A DNA stretch of 64,000 nt from NCBI RefSeq assembly GCF_901538265.1, contig NZ_LR593886.1, forward strand, positions 4,547,738 to 4,611,737, in the 5' to 3' direction. The translations under genes were made by a program, and so were the position numbers. Shown here in pieces: positions 32,308 through 33,258 of the stretch (positions are counted from its first letter, which is position 1; each line of letters begins with the position of its first letter). This DNA is from Gemmata massiliana (GTDB lineage Bacteria > Planctomycetota > Planctomycetia > Gemmatales > Gemmataceae). The notes beneath the pieces were generated by a model. It saw only the letters and a list, made by a program, of their open reading frames with translations. It made no database searches and was not told where the DNA came from.

Positions 32308-33258
32308 TCAGCGCGCGTCGACAAAACTCAGTAGCCGCGGGCGCCGACCCAGTACGCAGCTCACCGCGTACCCCAGAACCTGTCGCACCTCGGTCCGGAC
32401 CCCGGGCGGGAGTTCCGGCCCAGCGCCCCCAGCGCTCAGCGCGCGAATCGTTTCGAGAGACTCGCCCGAAACCATTCGCCGGTCGGCGACCGCCGGCCCG
32501 CATTCCGGGCACAGTACCCCCCCGGCCGACGGGCTAAAAAACGCTCGCGCGGTCGGGTTCAGTCGCTCTCGTCCACAGGTGGCACACGCTTCGAGTCGCG
32601 GGCTATATCCCAGCTCTTGGAGCCAAACAAGCTCAAACGCGGACACGCGGGCGGCGAGGTCTAACCCTCCGTTTCCCGATGTGGGGGAACCTACCCCCCC
32701 GTCCCCCTTCCCTTCAGGGAGGGGGGACGGGGGGGTAGGTTGTGGCTGCAACCCCTCCCCAACCCCTCCCCTAAACGGAGAGGGGCTTAAAACCGGCGCT
32801 TGCGGCGTGTCGATTCCTGTTTTTGGTTCTGTTCCCCCTTCCTTTCTAGGGAAGGGGGTTAGAGGGTTAGGTTTCCTCCCTTTCCCCAACGATCGCAGTG
32901 TTTGGATGGCCGCGTCGAAGAGCGGAGGGTGCGGGTCGTAGTCCTGGGTGCCGTCGGCGAGCAGTTCGGCGACGTAGTACCCCGCGTAGAGTGCCGAGAG
33001 GTTCTGGCGCAACGTCGGAAACTGTTCGTTCATCCGCGCTTCGGTGAGGAGATCCAGCCCGCTTGCTTTGCGGATGAACACGACCTCGCACACGGTGAGC
33101 AGGTCGAACGCGACGTCGAAGTTCGATTTGAGCCGGCGCCCGCCCTTCGCCAAAGCACGCACCTTGCCGAACTCGCGTGTGAACAGCGTGGCGATGCGAC
33201 TGGTCTCGCTCCAGTCGGTTCCGCGAACCACGATCGCGAGCGCTTTATCGGCAGCCAT
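32308..33258 (-). CDS. recO: DNA repair protein RecO with a repeat-derived insert
   Basis: 316 residues from the ATG at 33258 (MAADKALAIVVRGTDWSETS). N-terminal OB-fold (IATLFTREFGKVRALAKGG), helical middle (LSALYAGYYVAELL, DPHPPLFDAAIQTLRSL) and a zinc-finger region (CATCGRE ... CPECG). RecO loads RecA on gaps with RecR and anneals strands. RecO is normally about 245 residues: here residues about 126-197 are a proline/glycine-rich insert (PLTPFPRKEGG, SPSPFRGGVGEG, TPPSPLPEGKGDGGV) coded by palindromic repeat DNA. Removing it leaves about 244 residues. The insert lies between helical segments, so the protein may tolerate it. Confidence 0.93.
   Translation of the reverse strand: MAADKALAIVVRGTDWSETSRIATLFTREFGKVRALAKGGRRLKSNFDVAFDLLTVCEVVFIRKASGLDLLTEARMNEQFPTLRQNLSALYAGYYVAELLADGTQDYDPHPPLFDAAIQTLRSLGKGRKPNPLTPFPRKEGGTEPKTGIDTPQAPVLSPSPFRGGVGEGLQPQPTPPSPLPEGKGDGGVGSPTSGNGGLDLAARVSAFELVWLQELGYSPRLEACATCGRERLNPTARAFFSPSAGGVLCPECGPAVADRRMVSGESLETIRALSAGGAGPELPPGVRTEVRQVLGYAVSCVLGRRPRLLSFVDAR
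32688..32858. repeat. Palindromic repeat cluster inside recO
   Basis: Three GC-skewed hairpins in a row. First: 32688-32712 and 32717-32741, a 25-base stem with one G-U position and a 4-base loop (AACCTACCCCCCCGTCCCCC at its start). Second, looser: CCCCTCCCC around 32750-32772 with GGAGAGGGG at 32778. Third: CCCCCTTCC (32834-32842) with GGAAGGGGG (32850-32858). All three frames needed by recO stay open through about 216 bases. The design resembles small non-autonomous palindromic elements. Confidence 0.85.

Follow-up and report, generated by a model that had tools for sequence, protein, structure and literature searches.

A palindromic repeat family concentrated in the genus of Gemmata, probably translated in frame within recO and other conserved genes

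Palindromic repeats that are translated as part of host proteins are best known from intracellular bacteria, notably Rickettsia. The Rickettsia elements (RPEs) are described, in the available text of the papers concerned, as palindromes of 105 to 150 bp whose open frame continues the reading frame of unrelated genes, with further copies between genes (PMC2229807, PMC10969869), and a Wolbachia counterpart is cited in the consulted portion of PMC2229807. Two other kinds of repeat come close to this description. The intragenic GTAG/CGTC REPs reported in 2013 are short palindromes inside genes that include uvrA, uvrB and recB, and the part of that paper that we could consult places tagged REPs in Planctomycetes and, in numbers, in the verrucomicrobium O. 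terrae, with 0 occurrences of the word Gemmata (PMC3733652). The enterobacterial repeats RU-1, RU-2 and RU-3 are MITE-like and keep an open frame inside annotated genes, according to the accessible text of PMC2759123.

We describe here a repeat found in recO of Gemmata massiliana, within a window of 64,000 nucleotides (the whole stretch of DNA that was analyzed). Like RPEs, it is a palindromic repeat of about 105 to 150 bp present in many copies (124 bp for the type I unit in recO and 132 bp for a type II unit at locus L116), it lies in frame in several unrelated conserved protein genes, and the unit contains an open frame that encodes a conserved peptide. It differs from RPEs in being GC-rich and modular (type I, type II, and composites of them), in belonging to a planctomycete genus, in using both orientations, in having a variable spacer of fixed length, and in occupying sites that are often common to several species while the sequence there changes. 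The likeness to RPEs, already drawn in a first-pass annotation made from the sequence alone, is sound as a working likeness judged by the description of RPEs, and the Gemmata repeat may be said to work like them. With the intragenic REPs it shares palindromes placed inside genes, repair genes among them, but its unit of 124 to 132 bp compares with 20 to 40 bp for REPs, its hairpins carry the GTAG tag in 0 of 138 contexts and the CGTC tag in 11 of 138, and its genome has no Y1_Tnp match. From RU-1, RU-2 and RU-3 it differs in both sequence and host. The annotation had also known of no planctomycete description of such inserts. This stands for the Gemmata family, as the titles and abstract openings covered, largely from outside the subscription journals, included no paper on such inserts in Gemmata and a search for the insert peptides as text found no paper; it must be qualified by the tagged REPs of Planctomycetes cited above.

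The palindromic segment of recO

The gene, its extra loop, and the repeat modules within it are located as follows, in window coordinates.

32311..33258, minus strand: recO, 316 codons, with its ATG at 33256-33258 and its stop at 32308-32310 (open reading frame; Pfam RecO_N and RecO_C)
32671..32883, minus strand: extra loop of RecO, codons 126 to 196 (RecO alignments, comparison with E. coli RecO, AlphaFold2)
32688..32741, no strand assigned: type II module, a hairpin with 26-nt arms, minus-strand reading PTPPSPLPEGKGDGGVG (inverted repeat, genome-wide copies)
32750..32873, minus strand: type I module, two hairpins with AACC...GGTT ends, reading PNPLTPFPRKEGG-spacer-LSPSPFRGGVGEGL (copies L001 to L030, alignment of 19 copies)
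32763..32785, minus strand: hairpin B of the type I module (inverted repeats, RNA fold, alignment of 19 copies)
32834..32857, minus strand: hairpin A of the type I module (inverted repeats, RNA fold, alignment, pattern match)
32788..32833, approximate, minus strand: variable spacer between hairpins A and B (spacer lengths and identities across copies)

In the product, Pfam places RecO_N at residues 5 to 79 and RecO_C at residues 204 to 307. The alignment with E. coli RecO (3q8d, 242 aa) runs up to query residue 124 and chain residue 120 and resumes, weakly, at query 205 and chain 131, with about 10 residues in the E. coli protein against about 80 in Gemmata RecO at the loop site. The first-pass annotation was right that a RecO of 316 aa is oversized for its family. 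It had attributed 72 extra residues, at about 126 to 197, to repeat DNA ending at 32858, and both the insert and three hairpins are indeed there; its bounds shift to about 126 to 196 (about 71 residues), and by our reading of the sequence the repeat extends to 32873. An AlphaFold2 model, built with 27 RecO sequences as input, has a pLDDT of at least 90 for 163 of the 316 residues and sets the loop (126 to 196) between helices 111-125 and 197-215, with a pLDDT below 50 at residues 144 to 194 and no secondary structure in the loop. This predicted disordered loop agrees with the earlier suggestion that the insert sits between helices, where it might be tolerated.

The arms of the type II hairpin (32688-32713 and 32716-32741) are 26 nt each and 96% complementary, and the ends of type II are inverted repeats of one another. 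The type I module, 124 bp long, has a MITE-like layout of two hairpins and a spacer. Its arms pair end to end in a consensus fold of 19 copies and are nearly invariant among them, which makes covariation hardly informative. As RNA, a 201-nt stretch of the recO segment folds at -117 kcal/mol, compared with -86.4 (standard deviation, 4.8) in 200 shuffles, none of which was equally low (z = -6.4). Within the window, the hairpin pattern defined below matches at 32704 and 32835 only. Judging from the sequence, we regard it as highly probable that the recO segment is a translated, in-frame insertion of a Gemmata palindromic repeat, and we hold with equally strong confidence that the repeat would leave the gene unbroken and be read as about 70 extra residues in a flexible loop.

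Probable gain and turnover at the recO site

A RecO match was found in 52 of the 59 genomes compared (referred to by our handles, G001 and so on), and 30 loci were aligned, 18 of them from the genus and 12 from other genera. The loop is absent from 8 of the 18 genus genomes (G003, G005, G006, G008, G011, G013, G014, and G017) and from all 12 genomes of other genera. The expectation that related RecO proteins would lack the insert was therefore borne out for these genomes, but the insert is not private to this genome, as eight relatives (G009, G012, G001, G004, G010, G015, G016, and G002) carry a segment there as well.

These segments are diverse. The spacer is common to this genome and G009, with 36 of 41 positions identical, and within hairpin B of G009 a second palindrome is nested. 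By eye, G012, G001, G004, G010, and G016 carry other hairpins at the site and G015 an unrelated long one, and the segment of G002 is not clearly palindromic. In a RecO tree of 27 rows, from which G009, G007, and G033 were left out, the eight insert-bearing proteins that it contains form one side of a branch (support of 59/91, recovered in 57% of 200 bootstrap trees), and none of 500 shuffles was as low. A single gain of the loop, in an ancestor shared by some members of the genus, is the probable history, with turnover of its sequence afterward. A possible alternative, to which we give clearly less weight, is that the site is an insertion hot spot, with different palindromes arriving separately in each species. 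It would account for the different hairpins seen by eye in G015, G004, G001, and G010 and for the RNase R and L116-type proteins of G012, which carry other palindromes than this genome does at the same sites; it fits less well with insert-bearing proteins confined to one side of a branch and with a spacer that this genome and G009 still have in common.

Comparison shows that some other host genes, too, lack the insert in relatives. The ParA-like gene has 37 extra amino acids here, 2 in G009 (flank identity of 95 to 100%), 15 in G012, and none in G002, G001, or G004, and its insert is most simply read as a recent gain in this genome. Because sister species offer one protein in insert-bearing, insert-free, and exchanged states, direct measurements could be made of what such a loop costs or contributes.

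Other palindromes were also seen at these sites. In RNase R of G012 (L173), at L176 of the same genome, and in recO of G015 (L036), the place that the main repeat has in this genome is taken by palindromes whose long inverted ends begin with GTGAACC... or GGCGAACGGCC.... A palindrome with the core CCGCGRGAAGCTCYGCTGAC is nested in hairpins of the first repeat, inside genes, in recO (L034) and uvrA (L151) of G009 and at L027 (G000:C1:5143279-5143468). Counted on the two strands, this nested family has 6 + 5 matches in this genome and 21 + 15 in G016, and a third family, GCCGGCGTGAGCCGGCTGGTGA, has 4 + 4 matches here, 12 + 10 in G012, and 14 + 8 in G003. The recO gene of G007 (L039) has a short remnant, TTAGGTT, together with a frame break, either from a collapsed assembly or from partial excision.

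Copies across the genome and their reading frame

Copies were searched with the hairpin pattern CCCCYTCCYTN{1,5}RGGRRGGGG, with the reversed pattern as a control. In the 10.1-Mb genome of G. massiliana we obtained 162 + 207 = 369 exact matches, counted per strand and partly overlapping, and 0 + 0 for the control. The matches listed merge to at least 54 hairpins in at least 38 clusters within the first 2.79 Mb; among them only the plus strand is represented past about 1.9 Mb, and some clusters there may be absent from the 38. A BLAST search of the genome with the 206-bp recO region gave 133 matches, including itself and matches of hairpins on both strands. The further copies on which the annotation had staked its reading thus exist, and most of the sampled clusters (23 of 38 among the matches listed) lie in coding frames. 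Across genomes, the pattern is present in 17 of 59, this one included: 14 of the 19 in the genus holding Gemmata (with 44 to 369 matches per genome), 3 of 18 in the remaining genera of its family, and 0 of 22 outside the family, while the reversed control has a single match in each of G005 and G014. The repeat family is concentrated in the genus holding Gemmata. All genus genomes without the pattern (G008, G011, G013, G014, and G017) also lack the RecO loop; G003, G005, and G006 have the pattern and no RecO insert.

Genes around the 38 clusters, taken in list order, were called with a codon model trained on the 64-kb window. A called gene spans the repeat in 20 clusters, and reading the frames by hand added three (L084, L105, and L118); a called spanning gene was lacking in 18 clusters, for which we relied on manual reading in 5 (L099 stayed unclear) and on the called neighbors in 13. 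In total, 23 clusters are in frame in genes, 1 is in a broken gene, and 14 are intergenic or unclear. With a flank coding fraction of 0.862, 32.8 of the 38 would be expected in genes and 24 were observed (P = 0.0003). As genes are hit less often than random placement predicts, insertion is not harmless; the repeat avoids genes, yet the majority of sampled copies lie within them. Should this sample be representative, in-frame copies would be present in about 80 genes of the genome. The segment in recO can be pictured as one translated insertion of a family concentrated in this genus, in which copies landing in an open phase at flexible loops would survive, copies that break genes would be removed by selection, and a loop that already holds a repeat would tolerate further insertions, deletions, and exchanges. 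Separately, we observed at L113 (G000:C1:1933063-1939083, in this genome) a gene, which we take to be of the DUF1549/1553 kind, with an internal stop elsewhere and a frame change at the repeat copy; it looks broken.

Among the BLAST copies, 31 of 40 have a stop-free span with flanks that are coding in the summed score, an upper estimate, as the repeat may precede the true start in some; the 40 come from the best 41 rows, a neighbor of L011 and the shorter matches being omitted. Pfam matches with an E value of 1e-4 or better were obtained for 26 of 29 proteins around these copies (one of them, at L014, only below the cutoff of its family) and for 9 of 10 hosts from the 38-cluster census, and none for the L116 protein or the L067/L100 protein. 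The labels include UvrA domains, RecD2 and SMUBP-2/HCS1 helicase domains, SelB, MoeA, QueG, RNB with cold-shock and S1 domains (RNase R type), PP-loop (TilS type), MobA-like transferase, ParA-like AAA_31, aldehyde dehydrogenase, AcrB-type pump, PNKP ligase, and penicillin amidase. Gene names that go beyond these labels (UvrA, RNase R, TilS, QueG, ParA, and MobA-like) are presumptive.

The open frame belongs to the repeat itself. Six-frame translation of a type I stretch (113 bp, from the RNase R copy) and of the 132-bp type II copy at L116 gives one fully open frame per strand in each, and all 22 distinct type I copies are open across hairpin, spacer, and hairpin. That the inserts are selected segments, such as flexible linkers or interaction motifs, that help the host protein is improbable in our judgment. 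Many sites are kept across species while the sequence changes, as such a role would have it, and spacers compared with G009 show a small third-position excess (12 of 95 against 13 of 183 at first and second positions, from few sites; with G012, most spacers are different elements and the comparison was not taken as proof). Nevertheless, the same peptide recurs in unrelated proteins, copies that lack a coding span (L010 and L069) have the open frame as well, and the recO loop is both unstructured in the AlphaFold2 model and missing from 8 of 18 genus genomes. The RecO insert is most likely a neutral or slightly costly passenger.

At 23 host sites, chosen because they are open in this genome, we measured in relatives how far apart the conserved flanks lie; 26 had been planned, and the RecD2-like, SelB-like, and MoeA-like hosts were dropped for want of a working right-hand anchor. 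At these sites the in-gene inserts add 26 to 106 residues, mostly rich in proline and glycine. Segment length in G012, a near relative, differs from that in this genome at 21 of 23 sites, yet all 23 lengths are multiples of three with 0 stops, which favors translation of the inserts; 19 of the 23 G012 sites were located through separate flank matches or, for RecO, through the RecO search. Some of the G012 segments are short and not palindromic (e.g., in the AcrB-type pump), and the CobT-like site there holds next to nothing. RecO segments of G001, G002, G004, G010, G015, and G016 are likewise divisible by 3 in 6 of 6 cases. The lengths at 18 further sites in G001, G002, and G004 are all divisible by 3 too, although these were found by a one-piece match to a joined query, which biases toward in-frame and short segments (12 of 24 rows in this comparison have 10 residues or fewer), so the frame argument is based on G012 and the six RecO sites.

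G009 keeps the frame at 9 of 23 host sites and appears out of frame at the other 14. Its assembly derives from 454 sequencing data, according to the part of PMC4672568 available to us. A C run of 5 in hairpin A is seen in 37 of 39 copies of this genome and 11 of 11 copies of G012 and in only 9 of 13 copies of G009, and some G009 segments contain runs of N. We tentatively attribute the G009 frame breaks to 454 errors, real loss of frame being a possible alternative. The UvrA copy uses another frame, opened by a changed base in the first hairpin by which a stop is lost, and its spacer of 41 nt in place of the usual 46 returns the second hairpin to the usual phase. That the palindromes are removed by RNA splicing, ribosome bypass, or protein splicing, so that the protein never holds them, can hardly be right, since a removed segment need be neither a multiple of three nor stop-free and G012 is both at 23 of 23 sites, and since the UvrA frame change is matched by a change in spacer length, even if the strong message hairpins (z = -6.4) and the 14 apparent G009 frame breaks would suit it.

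Translation of the repeat, which we prefer, would account for the odd proline- and glycine-rich stretches in Gemmata enzymes. Their numbers in planctomycetes, whose genomes here reach 10 Mb, suggest that translated palindromes can arise without genome reduction inside a host cell, and would add Gemmata to the groups in which the conversion of selfish DNA into protein can be followed.

Candidate movers and the variable spacer

The repeat has the MITE traits of small size, terminal inverted repeats, and no transposase gene within the unit. A search of this genome for Y1_Tnp (PF01797) gave 0 matches. Mobilization of RAYT/REP type by a RAYT of this genome was considered and left unsupported, with no Y1_Tnp match, rare REP tags, and Y1 loci without the pattern; the repeat pattern was not found at four Y1 loci including 1.5-kb flanks, one of the four (L070, G039) being from a genome without the repeat. 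The mover is probably not a RAYT of this genome. Visual inspection of the ends of 22 type I copies and of the ParA-like empty site revealed no convincing target-site duplication. Among the 21 genomes searched (this genome, G001 to G012, and G037 to G044), 17 have Y1_Tnp (IS200/RAYT) matches, this one not among them.

The spacer of type I is 46 nt long in 16 of the 22 distinct copies of this genome, and in these 16, aligned without gaps, mean identity is 96% for the hairpins and 63% for the spacer. Between species, spacers differ at 14 of 241 positions (6%) from G009 and at 9 of 77 (12%) from G012, figures drawn from spacers with 75% identity or more (6 of 8 for G009 and 2 of 7 for G012); the spacers dropped include exchanged elements, which weakens the claim for G012. 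Spacers differ far more between copies of this genome than the same copy does between species, at least with respect to G009. Either the hairpins are homogenized between copies or new spacers are brought in by copying. A more far-reaching proposal, which we put forward tentatively and consider rather unlikely, is that conserved proteins of Gemmata have long-lived loops in which unrelated palindrome families are gained, nested, trimmed, and exchanged in frame, with a cassette of near-constant hairpins that diversifies a spacer of fixed length; if true, it would amount to a standing supply of new protein sequence at fixed sites. Variable spacers with near-identical hairpins were also seen at copies L001 to L030, L061 to L069, and L083 to L120.
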